Both the position numbers and the translations under genes were made by a program. Shown here piece after piece: positions 18,855 through 43,968 of a stretch of DNA of 64,000 bases; position 1 is the first letter of the stretch, and every line of letters starts with the position of its first letter. The notes beneath the pieces are model-generated. The model saw nothing but the letters and a program-made list of their open reading frames with translations. It was not told the origin of the DNA and did not search any database. Origin of the DNA: Sulfurospirillum multivorans DSM 12446 (GTDB taxonomy: Bacteria; Campylobacterota; Campylobacteria; Campylobacterales; Sulfurospirillaceae); assembly GCF_000568815.1 (NCBI RefSeq), contig NZ_CP007201.1, forward strand, positions 372,001-436,000, given 5' to 3'.

Positions 18855-18929
<75 letters not shown>

Positions 18930-19040
18930 CTCTCTTTTCTAATACAATCTAATAAAGTCTAAAAATTCCCTAAACATCGAGACTATGGCGATTTTGTTCG
19001 TCTATTGAAATCCAGTAAAAACCAATACCATCTACGACAT

Positions 19041-19060
19041 TAATGTACTTTTTAATGTAC
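19041..19060. repeat. 20-bp direct repeat near the left island end
   Basis: TAATGTACTTTTTAATGTAC at 19041-19060 recurs exactly at 38596-38615, about 70 bp inside the right end. Internally it is a tandem TAATGTAC with a TTTT spacer. The position and symmetry fit arm-type binding sites for the integrase or excisionase. A further AGTACATTAAG lies at about 19094. Confidence 0.75.
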
Positions 19061-19117
19061 TTCGGATAAGATTTATAAAAAGCTTCCTAAAAAAGTACAT
19101 TAAGAGATGAGAAAACC

Positions 19118-29032: not shown

Positions 29033-29392
29033 TTATACCCCGATCTCTTTCATGGCAACCTTTTGTAAAAAAGCTGAACGGGTAAGATGCAAAGGAGCAA
29101 TAAAATCATCAATCTTTTTAACTAAACGCTCTGGCATAGAAATGTTAATACGAAGGCTTTTATCTGCTTCATTAGGCTCAGCGATACTTTCTTTACTCTC
29201 AAGCATAACCATTACTAAAGCTTTAAATGCTTCTTGGGCAGATTGTAATGCCTCATCAGCACTTTCACCATCACCCATAACGCCTTTGAAGTCTTTATAG
29301 TAAGCAAACCATCCACCACCATCTTCTGGTTTAACTTTTTTAACAATAATCTCATAATCCAAGTTTGTATAATAATCAAGGTTCTTTTTCAT
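29033..29392 (-). CDS. hicB: HicB antitoxin, copy 1
   Basis: 119 residues. The N-terminal HicB RNase-H-like degenerate fold (YEIIVKKVKPEDGGGWFAYYKDFKGVMGDGESADEALQSAQEAFKALV) is followed by a C-terminal ribbon-helix-helix (LRINISMPERLVKKIDDFIAPLHLTRSAFLQKVA) for DNA binding and autoregulation. It overlaps hicA by 4 nt. It neutralises HicA, an mRNA-cleaving toxin. A near-identical second pair lies at 48148-48734. Confidence 0.9.
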   Translation of the reverse strand: MKKNLDYYTNLDYEIIVKKVKPEDGGGWFAYYKDFKGVMGDGESADEALQSAQEAFKALVMVMLESKESIAEPNEADKSLRINISMPERLVKKIDDFIAPLHLTRSAFLQKVAMKEIGV

Positions 29393-29619
29393 TTTATTTC
29401 TCCTAATATCTCTAAAACATGTTTGACGTAAATAGCTTTAATGGGCTTATGATAAGGGATAACAATATGTTCACAAAACTCTTTACGAAATACATAATGA
29501 CTACCACCACTATTCTGACAGGTGTAGCCATAACCTTCTAAAAGCTTCTTGATATCCTCAAATGGAATATCTTTTGGGTTGTTTTTCATCGCTTGCAAAA
29601 GCTTATCTTTTTTACTCAT
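29389..29619 (-). CDS. hicA: HicA toxin, copy 1
   Basis: About 76 residues from MSKKDKLLQAMKN. A dsRBD-like mRNA interferase with the catalytic His in NSGGSHYVFRK, the family-typical GGSH. The seven-residue upstream extension lacks a better ribosome site and I excluded it. It lies next to the 3' end of the tyrosine recombinase gene, an arrangement partly copied at 48 kb. Confidence 0.88.
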   Translation of the reverse strand: MSKKDKLLQAMKNNPKDIPFEDIKKLLEGYGYTCQNSGGSHYVFRKEFCEHIVIPYHKPIKAIYVKHVLEILGEIK

Positions 29620-29692
29620 CCATGCCCTCTCAATACACAATCTTACACAACATTTATTTAAAAGAAATTAAAAAAATCTTTTATGAAAAATT

Positions 29693-31441: not shown

Positions 31442-31713
31442 TATTGCTCTCCAAGTGTTAAAATTATTAAATATATATTACATTGTGAAACTTTAATTGG
31501 TAGTTAATAATCATTTTCCTTTTACGAAAATTTCCACATTTTATCTAAATGTTGAAAATTGAGTAACAGAACTAATGTTTGATGGACAAATATATAATCT
31601 AACGAAGTGGAGTTTCAAATGGTTTTCAACAAAATGGGCTATTTTGTTGAATATTCTTAAAAACTCAAGAAAACTTTGGCATAATTAGAAAAATAATCTA
31701 TTTCGGAGCTACT

Positions 31714-32751
31714 TTGGACATAACTGCTGTTGATCTCTTCTGTGGTGCTGGCGGTTTGACACATGGGCTTATTCAAGCTGGCATCAATGTAAAGCTTGGT
31801 GTTGATATTGATCAAAATTGTAAATACCCTTATGAAACTAATAATAATGCCAAGTTTATAGGTTGCTCAGTCGAAGATATTACCGGAAAAGATCTTGCAA
31901 AATATTTCGATACATCTAGTATACGACTATTGGCAGGGTGTGCTCCTTGTCAAACATTTTCAACCTACAATCAAAAAGCGAATTCTACAGATAAGCGTTG
32001 GTGGCTACTAATGCAGTTTTCCCGCTTAGTAAAAGAATCATCTCCAGATATCGTAACTATGGAAAATGTTCCTGGGCTTTTAAGTCAAGATATTTTTCAC
32101 ACTTTTGTTAATAACTTGAAAATGGCAGGCTATTTCGTCGATTATAAAGTGGTCAATTCAGCAGAGTATGGTTTACCACAAAGACGGCGCAGACTCGTTT
32201 TATTAGCGTCCCAAAAGGGACCAATTGAGCTTCTTTCACCAAAGGCATTAGATGTGGAAATCCATACCGTTAGAGATGCTATTGCACATCTACCTAGTTT
32301 AAAGGATGGTGAAATGCATCCAGACGATCCTCTACATCAATGCTCATCTCTATCTTTGTTAAATCGTAAGCGAATGAATGCTTCACTCCCTGGTGGGACA
32401 TGGCGTGATTGGGATGAAGAACTAATTGCTGATTGTCACAAAAAAACCTCTGGTAAAACCTATCCGGGTGTTTATGCTCGTATGGAATGGGATAAACCAG
32501 CTCCTACTATAACTACCCAATACTATGGATTTGGTAATGGTCGATTTGGACATCCTGAGCAAAACAGAGCAATTTCATTACGAGAAGGTGCCATTTTTCA
32601 AGGGTTTCCTAGAGATTATCAATTTATACGCCATGGAGAATCAATAAATAAGAGAATAATTGGTCGTATGATTGGTAATGCCGTGCCTGTCAAATTGGGT
32701 GAAGTAATAGGTAAAAGTATATTGTCACATTTAAAAAACAATTGTGCATAA
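31714..32751 (+). CDS. DNA cytosine-5 methyltransferase
   Basis: 345 residues, TTG start after CGGAGCTAC; the conserved motif I begins at residue 5, so no later start is possible. Motif I VDLFCGAGGLTHGL, motif IV GCAPCQTFS with catalytic Cys79, motif VI ENVPGLL, motif VIII QRRRRLVLLAS, and motifs IX-X RMIGNAVPVKLGEVI. A variable target-recognition region of ordinary size lies between VIII and IX. It heads a three-gene plus-strand cluster without a recognisable restriction nuclease. Preceded by a 272-bp gap with A/T-rich promoter-like sequence. Confidence 0.93.
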   Translation: MDITAVDLFCGAGGLTHGLIQAGINVKLGVDIDQNCKYPYETNNNAKFIGCSVEDITGKDLAKYFDTSSIRLLAGCAPCQTFSTYNQKANSTDKRWWLLMQFSRLVKESSPDIVTMENVPGLLSQDIFHTFVNNLKMAGYFVDYKVVNSAEYGLPQRRRRLVLLASQKGPIELLSPKALDVEIHTVRDAIAHLPSLKDGEMHPDDPLHQCSSLSLLNRKRMNASLPGGTWRDWDEELIADCHKKTSGKTYPGVYARMEWDKPAPTITTQYYGFGNGRFGHPEQNRAISLREGAIFQGFPRDYQFIRHGESINKRIIGRMIGNAVPVKLGEVIGKSILSHLKNNCA

Positions 32752-32785
32752 AAAAATCTAAATCCACACTATTAGGAAAGAACAT

Positions 32786-34192
32786 ATGGAAAATCAGATT
32801 AATGCAGCACCTGCAAAAATATTCTTCGTTGAGATGTTAACAAGAGATATTGATCTTGATGATGCAATACTAGATTTACTAGATAATTCTTTAGATGGGT
32901 TACTAAGATCAACGCTTGCATCAACAGATCAGTATAAAAAGCATAAAGTCGAAATATTTATTGATGCAAATCATTTTATGATACAAGATACATGTGGAGG
33001 AATCCCAACAAAAGTTGCACAAGACTATGCATTTAGAATGGGGCGTCCAGTTGGAGATCTAGATAATAATATTCCTACCATTGGTATGTATGGTATTGGT
33101 ATGAAAAGATCTGTTTTTAAAATGGGTACGGATATCAAAATTTTAAGTCGTAATGATGAACGATGTTTTAAGGTCGAAATTACTAAGAAATGGCTTGAAG
33201 ACGATAATCTATGGATTCTTGATATGCTTGACTGCAATCAAGAAATGCCTAACGAATTTGATAAAGGAACTAGGATTATTGTTACTGACCTATATCCAGG
33301 TATAGCGACTTTATATTCTCCAGACAGTGATTTTCTTGGACGATTAATGGAAAAAATATCAATACATTATGCCTTTGTTTTAAAGCATGGATTTAATATT
33401 TTTGTAAATACAACAGCAATTAAAGGTAAAGAAATTAGTCTATTAATTGATAACAATCCAGCACAATTTTTAGAAAAAAATATAATTGCACCGTATATTT
33501 ACAAAGAGGAGAACGACGGACTAGAAATTACAATAGTGTGCGGCTTAGTCGATGCACCACCTTCACCAGAAGAAGAGTCAATAAGTGCTGAGACAGGGAA
33601 AGTTGATAGAGTAGATGCTGGCTGGACGATTATTTGTAATGATAGAGTTGTATTATATGCTGATAGGAGTAGGTTAACTGGATGGGGAGATGGATTACCC
33701 CAATTTCATTATCAATTTAATACATTAGTTGGCGTTGTAAGCTTTAGAAGCAATACAGCAAATAAGCTTCCTGTTACAACAACAAAACGAGGTGTTGATG
33801 CTTCATCTGATGTATATTTACGAATAAGAAGGAAAATGATTGAAGGAATGAGATTATTTGTTGATTATACTAATAAATGGAAAAATAAGCGAGATATAGA
33901 GCGAAAAAGCATATTACCAAAAGCTAAAAGTGAAACACTTGAAAGCGTTATGATCTCCAAACAATTTGATAGTATTATGTCAACCACAAAAGATGGATAT
34001 GGAGGTAAATTTTTCAAACCTAAACTACCAGAGCCTTCAACAGAAGATGATGGAATGAGAACAATAAAATTTTCAAAACACAAAGATGAAATAAAGCAAA
34101 TTGCATCTGATTATTTTGAAATTGCAGAATTAACAGCATCTCAGGTTGGTGAAAAATGTTTTGATGAAATTTATGCCCGTATAAATGGATAA
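32786..34192 (+). CDS. GHKL (HSP90/MutL/MORC-like) ATPase
   Basis: 468 residues. The Bergerat ATP fold is visible: N-box DAILDLLDNSLDGLL (Asn about 34), G1 DTCGGI, and the ATP lid GMYGIGMKRSVFKMG, then a transducer-like beta/alpha region with TTTKRGVDASSDVY. It is known that MutL/MORC-like GHKL ATPases occur in restriction-modification neighbourhoods, where they are thought to act as ATP-driven clamps or regulators. It lies 34 bp downstream of the methyltransferase and 5 bp upstream of the next gene. The codon use is A/T-rich like the island. Confidence 0.8.
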   Translation: MENQINAAPAKIFFVEMLTRDIDLDDAILDLLDNSLDGLLRSTLASTDQYKKHKVEIFIDANHFMIQDTCGGIPTKVAQDYAFRMGRPVGDLDNNIPTIGMYGIGMKRSVFKMGTDIKILSRNDERCFKVEITKKWLEDDNLWILDMLDCNQEMPNEFDKGTRIIVTDLYPGIATLYSPDSDFLGRLMEKISIHYAFVLKHGFNIFVNTTAIKGKEISLLIDNNPAQFLEKNIIAPYIYKEENDGLEITIVCGLVDAPPSPEEESISAETGKVDRVDAGWTIICNDRVVLYADRSRLTGWGDGLPQFHYQFNTLVGVVSFRSNTANKLPVTTTKRGVDASSDVYLRIRRKMIEGMRLFVDYTNKWKNKRDIERKSILPKAKSETLESVMISKQFDSIMSTTKDGYGGKFFKPKLPEPSTEDDGMRTIKFSKHKDEIKQIASDYFEIAELTASQVGEKCFDEIYARING

Positions 34193-34197
34193 GTAAA

Positions 34198-35169
34198 ATG
34201 TCTGGAGGAAATTTACCCTATCATTTGAGAGTTAAAAAAGAAATAGAGCGCCGTTTATTTGTAGAACAACTGAGACTAATTTCAAAAATCCATGATTTTG
34301 AAGAATATGCTTATATAGGTATGGCTGGTCCTTTTTCTGAAGATTTTAAAATAATGTATGATAGATTCAACTTCAAACATTTCTTTTCATATGAAACAGA
34401 AGAATCCGTTTATAAAAGGCAATCATTTAATATTCCATTTACACACATAAATTATATTAATAACAAAATTTCTACAGTACTAGATCAATACCCACAAATA
34501 GAAATAAAGGATAGCACATCTGTTATTGAAGCTTCTAAAGCAGTCCTTTGGTTAGATTATACGGGCTTCGATTATCAGTTATTAAATGATTTTGAGCGAG
34601 CTATTACGACGCTAGAAAGTGGCAGTGTTATAAAAATAACTCTACTTGCACATGTTTCAAAATTCTATTCATCAGCAACAGAGCCAATGACAATAGTTCG
34701 TGAGAATAGAGTAAGAAAGATTAATGAGGTATTGGGTGAAAATTATTTTTTAGCAGATGTTTTTACTCAAGAAAAAATGACTGAAAAAGACTTTCCTCTT
34801 ACTATCTTTGAGTTATTAAAAAAAATATCTTATTCAGCATTGCGAGGGGGGAAAACAAAATTTCTACCTATTTCATCTTATATTTATCAAGATGGTATGA
34901 CAATGATTACTTTTACTGGAATGATAATCAATCAAGACCAAGAAGATACATTTTTGCAAAAAACAGGCTTGAAAGAATGGATATATGGGCTACAAGCCTC
35001 TCCTCTTCCTTTAAAAATTGAAGTACCCTTCCTATCATTAAAAGAAAAGTTAAACTTAGATGCTTGTTTACCAAATAATCCTAGTAACTTGGATTATTTT
35101 GAAGGTTTAGAATTTCAGTCATATGAAAAATTCCATCGATTTTATCCTACTTATGCAAAGATTTTTTAA
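34198..35169 (+). CDS. Rossmann-like partner protein of the methyltransferase-GHKL cluster
   Basis: 323 residues, no family I can name with certainty. YAYIGMAGPFSEDFKIMYDRFNFKHFFSYETEESVYKRQ looks like the nucleotide/SAM-binding start of a Rossmann fold (Gly-rich turn, then an acidic end of strand 2), and KAVLWLDYTGFDYQLLNDF resembles the strand-4 acidic motif of methyltransferase-like proteins. The canonical Gly triplet is weak, so it may bind but not catalyse, or be a nuclease of unknown type. The close spacing to the GHKL gene implies it works with it. Confidence 0.5.
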   Translation: MSGGNLPYHLRVKKEIERRLFVEQLRLISKIHDFEEYAYIGMAGPFSEDFKIMYDRFNFKHFFSYETEESVYKRQSFNIPFTHINYINNKISTVLDQYPQIEIKDSTSVIEASKAVLWLDYTGFDYQLLNDFERAITTLESGSVIKITLLAHVSKFYSSATEPMTIVRENRVRKINEVLGENYFLADVFTQEKMTEKDFPLTIFELLKKISYSALRGGKTKFLPISSYIYQDGMTMITFTGMIINQDQEDTFLQKTGLKEWIYGLQASPLPLKIEVPFLSLKEKLNLDACLPNNPSNLDYFEGLEFQSYEKFHRFYPTYAKIF

Positions 35170-39884: not shown

Positions 39885-42240
39885 GCTTCACCTTGAAAAC
39901 TTCAAACGCTACACCTCTTTTGATATCGAGTTTGGCGAAGGGCTTATCGGCATCATCGGTAAAAATGGCAGTGGCAAATCGACTCTTTTTGAAGCGATAC
40001 TTTTCGCGCTTTATGGCGAGCTTCGAAACAAAAAATTTAAAGAAGTCATACGAAATGCCAGTGCAAGTGATAAAGATGCCGTTTTAGTTGAGCTTGATTT
40101 TGAGTTTGAAGGCATGGCGTACAAAGTCATGCGTGAGTTTCGAGGCAAAGCCCTCAGTGCCAATGCCAAGCTTTATAAAAACGGCGAGCTTACCACCAGT
40201 GGCGCGCGAGAAGTCACCGTGGCTATCACGAAGCTAACGAAGATGAGTAAAGAGGCATTTTTGCATACACTTTTTGCTTCTCAAAAGGAACTGACAAGTC
40301 TTAGCACACTTAAAAATGAAGATCGAAAAAAGATGATACGAAAACTTCTTGGGCTTGAGAAGATTGATTTTGTGGAAAATGAACTCATTGAAAAAAGCAG
40401 GGAACTCAAACGTGACATCGCAGCAAGTGCAGAATTTCTTTTAGGCGAAGAAGAGCTCAAAAGTAAAACAGTGTTGATAAAAGAGACAACCGCCATAAAA
40501 CAAGCGTTTGAAAAAGAGGTCAAAACCAAATCCACGGAACTAGAAACCACCAAAAAACAAGAGTTACATGTAAAGCAAGAACTCGAACTTTTTGTCAAAA
40601 CGAAAGAGCAGAAACAAAAGTTCATCGGCGAACTTTCCCTCATCAAAAACGACATTAACGCAAACATAGCTACTCAAACCAAACTTACCACAGAGCTTAA
40701 AGCCTTAGAAACGAAAGTCAAAGAACTTAAAAGTTTAAGCACCGTTAAAAAAGAGTACGAATCTTTGTCAACAAAGCTAAAAGAGCAAGAAACTCTTAAA
40801 AATATTCAGATAAAAAAAGAGGGTTTGGAAAAAGAGCAAACCCAGTTGCGTGCCCAGTACACCAAAGCCAAAGCAGACATCGCAACTTTGGAAGAGCAAA
40901 CCAAACCCTATGAAACACTCTTGGGGCAAAAAAAAGAAAATGAAGCTTTACATGTAAAGATAAAAACCGAACTTGCGAACAAGCAAACAGAGCAAAAACA
41001 ACTCCAAAATGAATTCTCAGCTGAACAGCGAGTCGTCTTAGACACACAACAAAAAATTGCCAAGATACAAAGCTTAGGTCGAGAATCAAACTGCCCTACC
41101 TGTACCAGACAACTACTTGATGAATACGACAATGTCATCGCCTCCCTAAACGACATCGTGCAAAAAACGCAAAGTCAAAAGATAGACAAAACCAAAGCAA
41201 AACTTGAACTCTTAAACAAACAGATAGGAGAGCTTGAACTTCAAAAAGAGCAAACCCAAAAAGCCTTACATGTAAATGAGACAGCGCTAAGTTTGATAGC
41301 AAGCAAGCAAAAAGATTTGGCAAGTGCCAAAGAGCATTTTACGAAGGTCAGTGAACAAGGCAAACGCAACAAAGAAGAACTTGACAAACTCGCACAACAC
41401 GCTTACGATGAAGCCTTACATGTAAGCCTACAAAAAAGCTTTTTGGAGTTAAAACCAAAGTACGAAGCCGTCCTAAGCCTTGAAACTGAACTCAAACGAG
41501 AGCAGGGCGTGAGAGAGGATTTGGCACTTACATGTAAGAGTGCAGAAGCTTTACATGTAAAAGAAAAAGAGAAAGAAATGGAAGTTACCAAAACACTGTA
41601 CGATGAGCCAAAACACACCGCAAAAAAAAGCGAATACGACGAACTTCAAAAGCAAAAAGAGAAACAATACAGCGTTATTTCGGAGATAAAAGAAAAAATA
41701 GCCAAGAATGAGGGCGAGATAAAAACCTTGCAAAACGCTCTTGAAAATAACGACATACAACTTAAAAAAGTACAGAGTAAAAAAGACGATTTGCAAGACT
41801 ATGAGAAAATCAAACTAAGCCTTAGTGAGTTTAAAACAAAACTCAACTCAAAAATAGCCCCACGCATCTCCCAAATCGCTTCCCAAATGTACGCCACCAT
41901 CACCAAAGGCAAATACCAATACATCGAAGTGAACAACGACTTTGACTTTTTCATCTACGACGAGGGCAAATGCTACCCCATAGAACGCTTCAGCGGCGGC
42001 GAAATAGACCTTGCCAACTTAGTGCTTCGCATCGCCATCTCCAAAACACTGAGTGAACTGAACGGTGCAAGCAGTGTGGGATTTTTAGCCTTCGATGAAG
42101 TCTTCGGAAGCCAAGATGAAAACAGAAGAATGGAAATCTTAGAAGCGTTTCATACCATAAAAGAACAGTACAGACAGATATTTTTGATAAGTCACGAGAT
42201 GGAGATAAAAGAGATGTTTGAGAGAGTTGTGGAGTTGTAA
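39871..42240 (+). CDS. sbcC: SbcC/Rad50-type SMC ATPase
   Basis: 789 residues. Walker A GKNGSGKST near residue 30, a long coiled coil broken at about residue 407 by the zinc hook NCPTC, the ABC signature FSGGE near 707 and Walker B FLAFDEVFG near 738. Six TTACATGTAA palindromes (40564, 40948, 41266, 41416, 41528, 41551) lie only in the coiled coil, five read as Leu-His-Val and one as Leu-Thr-Cys-Lys, and none in the ATPase lobes. The chain is shorter than E. coli SbcC (~1050). Confidence 0.93.
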   Translation: MILSKLHLENFKRYTSFDIEFGEGLIGIIGKNGSGKSTLFEAILFALYGELRNKKFKEVIRNASASDKDAVLVELDFEFEGMAYKVMREFRGKALSANAKLYKNGELTTSGAREVTVAITKLTKMSKEAFLHTLFASQKELTSLSTLKNEDRKKMIRKLLGLEKIDFVENELIEKSRELKRDIAASAEFLLGEEELKSKTVLIKETTAIKQAFEKEVKTKSTELETTKKQELHVKQELELFVKTKEQKQKFIGELSLIKNDINANIATQTKLTTELKALETKVKELKSLSTVKKEYESLSTKLKEQETLKNIQIKKEGLEKEQTQLRAQYTKAKADIATLEEQTKPYETLLGQKKENEALHVKIKTELANKQTEQKQLQNEFSAEQRVVLDTQQKIAKIQSLGRESNCPTCTRQLLDEYDNVIASLNDIVQKTQSQKIDKTKAKLELLNKQIGELELQKEQTQKALHVNETALSLIASKQKDLASAKEHFTKVSEQGKRNKEELDKLAQHAYDEALHVSLQKSFLELKPKYEAVLSLETELKREQGVREDLALTCKSAEALHVKEKEKEMEVTKTLYDEPKHTAKKSEYDELQKQKEKQYSVISEIKEKIAKNEGEIKTLQNALENNDIQLKKVQSKKDDLQDYEKIKLSLSEFKTKLNSKIAPRISQIASQMYATITKGKYQYIEVNNDFDFFIYDEGKCYPIERFSGGEIDLANLVLRIAISKTLSELNGASSVGFLAFDEVFGSQDENRRMEILEAFHTIKEQYRQIFLISHEMEIKEMFERVVEL

Positions 42241-42262
42241 GAAACAAAAAAAGGAAAAGATA

Positions 42263-43968
42263 ATGGATGAATTAGATAGTTTACTTCAAGTGTTTAAAGA
42301 GATTGACAATAACTTAAAAAATTCAATGATTAAAAATCGTATAAACCTTTATAATAAAGATTTTGACTATGAAAAATTAGTAAAAATAATAAAAGAGTAT
42401 ATTGAAAATTTCAATATACTCAGAGAAACCAGTGAAGATGAATTAATAAATGATATTAAAAAGAAAGCTACTAATATTTTGTCTTCTACAAAAGAAGAAT
42501 ATTTTAATGTTCATTCTTTTACAAATGATGCAATATCTTTAATTGAAAAAGTTCCTCATGCTAATATAAATCTAAAGATTTTAAAAAAATCTCCAATGTT
42601 AATTGGTGCAGAAATAGAAAATAAATTTTACTTATATCTACTGGAAAGAAATTATCAACAAGAGTACATTTTAAGAAATGTTCGATCAAGAGTTAGTGAG
42701 CAAATACGTGCAGAATATGATTTTGTAATTCAGGATATACAAAAAAATATTATTGCATATATTGAAGTTAAAGTAGCAAAAAATAAACAAATTTTGTCAA
42801 ATGTGGTTAATCAAGTGCGCCAGAAATTATATCATGATAAAAATATAGCATTTTATTTAGTTGTTTATTTGAGTGATACACAAAAATTTATTTATATTTT
42901 ATTAGATGGCGAGAAAGAAATAAATTTAAATGAGTTTCCATCCTATGATGAATTGATAAATAATAGTCCATATCAAACTTTAGTAAAACACACAAATTGG
43001 AATAATTTTGTTAATAGTGTAGATTTTCAGAAACTTGCAAATATTCAAAAGCATAAAAAAGACTTAAATTATGAAGAAGGGGAAAAAGTAAGAGTATTTT
43101 TGAATCAATATGCTATTTCATTGCAAGAAAAGGTACCCGAACTAAAATCTTATAAGTGGAAACTAAATCAAGCATCAACACAAATACAATGGACTGATGA
43201 CAATGGTTTTAGGTTAAGTTTTTATAAAGGAGATAGTCTTCCCACATCTACACAAATAAATATTACATTCTGGGCAAGTTGGTATGGCGGAATTTTTATA
43301 AAAGATAATAAAAATCTTATTTTTAGCAGACCTGAAATAATAGATGACCTTAAAAAAGAATATCCTAATATGGAATTTGCAAAAGATAAGCAACATGTTA
43401 TGGCTATTCATTTTAAAAATGGTATGCCTAAGGAAAATGAAGTAATAGTTGCTATACAACAATTATTGGCTATTTTAGAAAACATTAAATCGTTAAATGG
43501 TAGTAAATCAATAGAAAGCGAAGTATCTACCGAAAATGGAAAAAATATAGCTATACCATTACAAATTGCAATTAAGAAAAAATCAGAGATGCAATCAGTT
43601 CTTGGTGTAGAAGCTGTTGCTAATACATTATCTTCTGTTATAGTGAAAGAATTTGATGATAGTGGAATGATGATAGGGATATTTGGAAAATGGGGGAGAG
43701 GGAAAACACATTTTTCTCATAGATTATGGGTATCAATAGAAGAAAAAAAATCAAACTATATTCGTGTTTCTTTTTCAGCATGGAAATATCAAGATACAAA
43801 AGCATCTTGGGCTTATCTTTATGAAAATATTTTTGCTGCATATCTTGATGATTTAAGAAATGAAAATACATATATTAAAAAATTAAAAAAATGGACTACT
43901 AACAATACTTGGCACAAATTAGTAGATAATTTAGATAACTTTTATATTGAAAAGAAAAAAATATTTAA
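42263..43968 (+). pseudogene. Nuclease-KAP P-loop ATPase gene, 5' part (split by IS256)
   Basis: From ATG 42263 (after AAGGAAAAG) to the IS junction. The N-terminal half has a PD-(D/E)xK-like core (RAEYDFVIQD ... AYIEVKVAKNKQILSNVVNQVRQKL), suggesting a nuclease or nuclease-like domain. Walker A is MIGIFGKWGRGKTH near residue 472, the KAP-type P-loop. The frame runs on for 34 codons into the IS before a stop. Joined to 45288-46395, leaving out the IS and one 8-bp duplication, it makes one frame of 2814 bases, exactly 938 codons. Confidence 0.85.
43961..43968. repeat. Target site duplication, left
   Basis: ATATTTAA directly precedes the IS at 43961-43968 and recurs directly after it at 45280-45287. 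This is the 8-bp duplication expected for IS256-family insertion. Confidence 0.95.

Follow-up and report, generated by a model that had tools for sequence, protein, structure and literature searches.

A conserved three-gene module of a C5 methyltransferase, a MORC-type ATPase and a PF20553 protein as a candidate mobile anti-phage system

The 64,000-nucleotide stretch of Sulfurospirillum multivorans DSM 12446 analyzed here (the window; contig NZ_CP007201.1, positions 372,001 to 436,000, with all positions below counted from its first letter) contains three adjacent genes encoding a C5-cytosine DNA methyltransferase, a MORC-type GHKL ATPase and a protein of the Pfam family PF20553. A first-pass annotation had proposed these genes as a candidate defence system of three same-strand genes within an integrated island, and a check of the open reading frames (ORFs) recovered all of them on the forward strand, separated by gaps of 34 and 5 bp. 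Gene 1 (31714..32751, +) starts with TTG and encodes a protein of 345 amino acids (aa), which matches PF00145 (C5 DNA methylase, 204 bits) and contains intact PCQ and ENV catalytic motifs, in agreement with its earlier assignment as a cytosine methyltransferase. Gene 2 (32786..34192, +; 468 aa) matches PF13589 (HATPase_c_3, 35 bits) and, together with its fold and motifs described below, this confirms the proposed Bergerat-fold (GHKL) ATPase. Gene 3 (34198..35169, +; 323 aa) matches PF20553 (Methyltransf_35, “Putative O-methyltransferase”) with 219 bits against a cut-off of 27. PADLOC models match only the methylase and do not exist for genes 2 and 3, which instead belong to the PHROGs families phrog_20521 (505 bits) and phrog_19983 (201 bits), both listed as function-unknown. 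Neither a helicase nor a Vsr gene lies beside the trio, as had been noted before, and no nuclease family was found in its proteins using Pfam, NCBIfam and PADLOC; a cognate restriction endonuclease, as in a type II restriction-modification (RM) system, was not found. Ahead of gene 1 (31657..31713, +), we found a possible promoter (extended –10, 31657-31685) and a Shine-Dalgarno-like CGGAGC preceding the TTG start, and the promoter-like matches in this interval are no more than chance gives.

The GHKL motifs of gene 2 read DLLDNSLDG (motif I), DTCGGI (motif II) and GMYGIGMKR (motif III). Among 137 sequences of this ATPase family, motif I is present in 136, D.CGG in 137 and G.YG.GMKR in 136. In established GHKL ATPases, a Glu of motif I serves as the general base; this position is an Asp in 136/136 scored homologues (Asp30 in gene 2). 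Residues 279-289 of the S5 domain, GWTIICNDRVV, correspond to the MORC-unifying motif GhXhhpXXRhl (Iyer, Abhiman & Aravind 2008, PMC2292703), which is kept in 134/137 homologues. The AlphaFold2 model of gene 2 (predicted local distance difference test score, pLDDT, 87) has mouse MORC3 as its top solved structure (5ix2, Z 22.6 over 297 residues, root-mean-square deviation (rmsd) 3.7), followed by human MORC4 (7k7t, Z 21.6), ahead of Hsp90 (20.5) and topoisomerase VI. MORC3 and MORC4 also ranked top in a profile search of the PDB, with weak scores (E 0.045-0.056). Because of its GHKL motifs, the S5-domain motif and a fold nearest to MORC3 and MORC4, gene 2 fits the published definition and is a prokaryotic MORC in the sense of Iyer et al. 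(2008). At five loci (L064, L071, L074, L082, L108), a second, longer GHKL paralogue (546-610 aa), which also carries a MORC-type motif, lies beside the C5 gene or the trio; this is possibly the paraMORC1 pairing mentioned in the same paper.

The third protein had initially been described as having no nameable fold, a description that does not hold. Its predicted structure (pLDDT 93.6, predicted template modelling score 0.92) shows a class I S-adenosylmethionine (SAM)-methyltransferase fold, and the leading matches in both Foldseek and VIA are methyltransferases; since VIA-align only re-ranks Foldseek matches, families missing from its list provide no evidence against them. The PF20553 model was matched by all 67 gene 3 homologues, in which 13 positions are invariant: Y8, R11, K14, R18, Y39, R74, W118, D120, T148, Y230, D232, E283 and P317. 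They include an N-terminal YxxRxxKxxxR, W118-x-D120 at strand 4 and T148 at strand 5. The SAM-pocket positions are kept as well (G43 in 94%, E66 at the end of strand 2 in 96% and D120 in 100%), and the conserved residues fall into the regions that hold the SAM and substrate sites of the class I fold. The possibility that gene 3 encodes a restriction endonuclease, which would have argued against a new arrangement, was rejected: sequence searches of Pfam, NCBIfam, PADLOC and the PDB gave no nuclease match, and the model has a methyltransferase fold. The closest solved structure is the tRNA N2,N2-dimethylguanosine-26 methyltransferase Trm1 (3axs, Z 15.0 over 218 residues, rmsd 3.8; next non-Trm1 matches, Z 13.0). 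Unlike Trm1, to which gene 3 is 11% identical, PF20553 genes sit in a defence rather than a tRNA modification context. We also rejected membership in the Trm1 family, as the likeness is one of fold only: hhalign gave a probability of 0.15% against a two-sequence Trm1 profile, and PF02005 is not among the Pfam matches. Because there is no profile relationship to Trm1, we claim no RNA substrate for gene 3. A literature search found no mention of PF20553.

We then asked how regularly the three genes occur together. Scans with an ATPase alignment yielded 51 loci in IMG/VR and 288 places in GTDB genomes, and the 80 best of the latter were retained. Among 134 loci, which were selected by presence of the ATPase and in which partners were counted within the stretch examined, PF20553 is present in 132 and a C5 methylase in 123. 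Many of the prophage loci barely differ from one another; 85 three-gene loci remain non-redundant at <90% ATPase identity. Searches begun from PF20553 instead of the ATPase recovered the same partners. The ATPase and PF20553 genes typically overlap (median spacing –4 bp) and lie within 15 bp of each other in 130/132 cases, whereas the C5 gene takes one of two places, upstream within the operon, which is the arrangement of the window (median gap 15 bp, n=29), or downstream in convergent orientation with overlapping 3′ ends (n=68). PCQ and ENV are present in all 121 C5 homologues of at least 320 aa. The hosts belong to Pseudomonadota, Cyanobacteriota, Bacillota, Planctomycetota, Acidobacteriota, Bacteroidota, Campylobacterota and others. 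Judged by this gene order and sequence conservation, the C5 methylase, MORC ATPase and PF20553 protein form a real conserved module in which genes 2 and 3 are coupled. The three genes are therefore not a rare combination, and the idea of a one-off minimal arrangement is not supported: helicase-free trios are the norm, with Vsr as an option and embedding in DISARM loci in a minority. A search of viral contigs with the single window protein gave no matches, and the viral loci were found with alignment queries; likewise, blastn of a window gene against E. coli gave no match, and the E. coli version was reached via a prophage homologue.

Some loci depart from this layout. The cyanobacterial loci L069, L070, L075, L079 and L080 contain the ATPase-PF20553 pair and no C5 methylase nearby; their methylase may lie elsewhere or have been replaced. 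At L104:9998-17091, two facing ATPase-PF20553 pairs, the second on the opposite strand, surround one C5 methylase and an HNH gene. In genome G514, found from the PF20553 search (L148/L149), the ATPase and PF20553 genes are both broken, which suggests that they decayed jointly.

The methylase of the window has a different history from its partners. Its identity to the C5 proteins of DISARM loci is 52-56%, against no more than 31% to those of other compact modules, and it falls into a 15-member clade (support 1.0) together with 10 DISARM C5 proteins. Neither the ATPase of the window nor its PF20553 protein groups with the DISARM clade of its family (mean identity 0.39 and 0.28, respectively); the tree labels for all three proteins derive from a single FastTree run per gene. 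Because the C5 methylase is of DISARM type while the ATPase and PF20553 are not, the window methylase has been swapped. The Sulfurovum relative L058 shows the same hybrid make-up, and L119, L124 and L133 represent the converse, a DISARM-lineage trio standing alone. The trees thus indicate that the C5 gene is exchanged while the ATPase and PF20553 genes stay paired, as would be expected if the C5 methylase supplies self-marking.

The genomic surroundings of the module support the candidate defence role proposed in the first-pass annotation, which we consider likely from these contexts. In E. coli strain M21170, the one record examined in full, the trio (L138: 15996-19511) is located in a P2-like prophage between portal gene Q and replication gene A, and portal-type and replication-type genes flank it in ∼20 more viral loci. 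A near-identical module is present in 45 of 5,426 complete E. coli genomes; in all 12 of the E. coli matches listed, the genes are annotated as ATP-binding protein, O-methyltransferase and DNA cytosine methyltransferase. The Q-A interval of P2 is the old/tin hotspot, which holds many validated anti-phage systems as well as other cargo (Rousset et al. 2022, PMC9122126), and 169 P2-hotspot systems are counted in that study. In the filamentous Pseudomonas phage PfAC20, all three genes are part of the cargo; a published analysis of this phage noted the methylase alone and scored the system as incomplete RM (PMC11878078). About a dozen loci lie inside DISARM, where DrmD, DrmMI, DrmA, DrmB and DrmC were confirmed on representatives by PADLOC models (Drm genes were found in L003, L112, L115 and others); on a Microvirga plasmid, for instance, the ATPase-PF20553 pair is situated within a DISARM locus. 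Vsr (PF03852) is encoded in 30 loci and HNH in few. Apart from these optional genes, no conserved nuclease neighbor was found across the loci.

In the window, the trio resides in an island whose left edge is marked by a tRNA-Asn gene (18855-18929) followed by a tyrosine integrase ORF (19118-20377; together 18855..20377, +). The GC content of the island is ∼0.28-0.41 (mostly <0.37), compared with ∼0.41-0.47 in the flanks, and a TraG_N conjugation gene is present. Of 298 genomes from the phylum, only 1 contains PF20553, and the sampled genomes of the same genus all lack it. In addition, the 13-mer CTTTACATGTAAA is missing between 18.9 and 38.8 kb, where ∼5 copies would be expected (P ∼0.005 if copies are randomly spread). 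Taken together, the low GC, the tRNA-Asn/integrase edge, TraG_N, the rarity of PF20553 in the phylum and the missing 13-mer support a recent foreign origin of the island. The right edge of the island is undefined, since the tRNA-Asn end was not found repeated as a further att copy within the window. Eight island proteins of the window were searched against PADLOC and Pfam, and none of them is a Drm protein.

The 3.18-Mb genome contains 842 copies (416 + 426 by strand) of the 13-mer CTTTACATGTAAA, which has the palindromic core TTTACATGTAAA; the reversed control is found 0 times. In the window, the 13-mer lies at positions 1675, 14601, 39484, 39571, 40946, 41549, 47480, 47762, 48787, 55154 and 59517. 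All 18 further genomes of the genus that were tested contain it, with copy numbers of 7 to 883 that are mostly in the hundreds, and it is practically never seen beyond the genus. The motif falls within genes and is translated as ALHVK in an SbcC-like protein. It resembles a genus-specific signature of the uptake or HIP1 type, and a literature search found no paper giving it such a role. Other features of the window include a KAP NTPase gene (42218-46395) with a nuclease-like appearance of its N-terminal region, which is interrupted by an insertion element (43969-45279) with an 8-bp target duplication, ATATTTAA; the transposase of this element is identical to that of a second copy at 22832-24034. 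A HicAB-like toxin-antitoxin pair is located at 29033-29640, and a near-identical second HicB-like antitoxin gene at 48375-48734, 19 kb off.

The trio resembles several known systems. The prokaryotic MORC/paraMORC neighborhoods predicted as RM systems by Iyer et al. (2008) also combine a GHKL + S5 ATPase carrying the MORC motif with an adjacent C5 methylase, sometimes with Vsr, and a minority of them are helicase-free MORC-plus-methylase neighborhoods; unlike these, the present trio has no constant nuclease or helicase partner, and a PF20553 partner as well as prophage and DISARM residence are not described in the part of that paper available to us. DISARM is similar in that about a dozen of its loci hold the ATPase-PF20553 pair between drmMI and drmA together with a related C5 methylase, which is also the type found in the window. 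However, the window lacks DrmA, DrmB, DrmC and DrmD, most modules stand alone, and the window ATPase and PF20553 protein branch outside the DISARM clade. In the paraMORC triads of Bellieny-Rabelo (2021, PMC8011034), a C5 methylase likewise lies by a HATPase_c_3 protein and a small partner, with Vsr/HNH nearby, but that partner is Response_reg_2 instead of PF20553, and the ATPase has HEF_HK/HATPase_c domains. Type II RM systems likewise have an exchangeable C5 methylase whose gene shares an operon with its partners, but no endonuclease gene was found in the trio. We regard the trio as a variant of RM-associated MORC systems, a kind so far predicted only.

Based on these observations, we propose, with about an even chance of being right, that the trio is a mobile RM-like anti-phage module in which the C5 methylase marks self and the MORC and PF20553 proteins block unmarked DNA by modification and/or compaction. 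The C5 methylase would mark the carrier's own DNA. The MORC ATPase could act as an ATP-gated dimeric DNA clamp, like eukaryotic MORCs, and engage incoming DNA that lacks the mark. The PF20553 protein would be its obligate, translationally coupled partner, brought to the captured nucleic acid in a catalytic or regulatory capacity; it is possibly the effector, as had been suggested initially. Phage replication or expression could then be stopped, with no dedicated nuclease, by SAM-dependent modification combined with MORC-driven clamping or compaction. We infer defence activity, self-marking, recognition of unmarked DNA and effector chemistry from gene content and context. Several points weigh against this proposal. 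The acidic residue typical of methyltransferase motif I is replaced in gene 3 by the invariant Tyr39, so that the protein may not be a conventional methyltransferase; because the SAM-pocket positions are conserved despite this exchange, SAM binding is likely, while catalysis of methyl transfer is plausible. The Asp in place of the general-base Glu suggests that ATPase turnover may be slow. A C5 methylase is not nearby in 11/134 loci, several of them cyanobacterial. The Vsr and HNH genes make nuclease assistance possible at some loci. Prophage residence indicates carriage at a defence site rather than activity, and a literature search, which did not cover subscription papers and supplements, found no paper describing or testing the C5-MORC-PF20553 trio or defence by it.

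Three other explanations have to be weighed against the proposed module. The PF20553 protein could be a non-catalytic SAM- or DNA-binding specificity subunit, and MORC alone would then block DNA, either without or with the C5 mark, by compacting it. The MORC fold and motif of gene 2 agree with this explanation, as do the Tyr at motif I, the missing PP-(Y/F) motif after D120 and the lack of profile similarity to Trm1, but G43, E66 and D120 are strongly conserved, which is unusual in a dead enzyme, and we consider it rather unlikely. A further idea, that MORC and PF20553 only recognize DNA which is then cut by Vsr/HNH proteins where encoded or by host nucleases, would account for the 30 loci with Vsr and the few with HNH. 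Vsr, however, accompanies C5 methylases generally, repairing deaminated 5-methylcytosine. GHKL proteins often drive nucleases, as in the neighborhoods of Iyer et al. (2008), yet most loci, including the window and nearly all prophage ones, encode neither Vsr nor HNH, and we regard cleavage in trans as improbable. We think it equally improbable that the genes serve no defence at all and form an epigenetic or addiction cassette protecting or regulating its mobile element. Such a cassette would fit the presence of the genes on P2-like prophages, on a Pf phage and on integrated islands, and a C5 methylase by itself would shield the element's DNA from host restriction; simple self-methylation, however, needs no two extra conserved genes, the C5 gene is exchanged independently, and the module is found in DISARM loci and in many phyla.

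Systems of this kind are currently overlooked, because PADLOC has no models for genes 2 and 3 and the Pf phage study (PMC11878078) scored the trio as incomplete RM. Since E. coli prophages carry a compact form of the trio at a proven defence hotspot, MORC-based RM can be tested directly. A bolder version of our proposal, which we put forward only tentatively, is nuclease-free immunity in which a methylation-guided MORC silences foreign DNA and the partner methyltransferase adds a second mark, a bacterial counterpart of MORC transposon silencing in animals and plants. If nuclease-free, the module would unite methylation-guided discrimination of self and non-self with MORC-mediated DNA compaction and would bear on the origin of eukaryotic MORC silencing.

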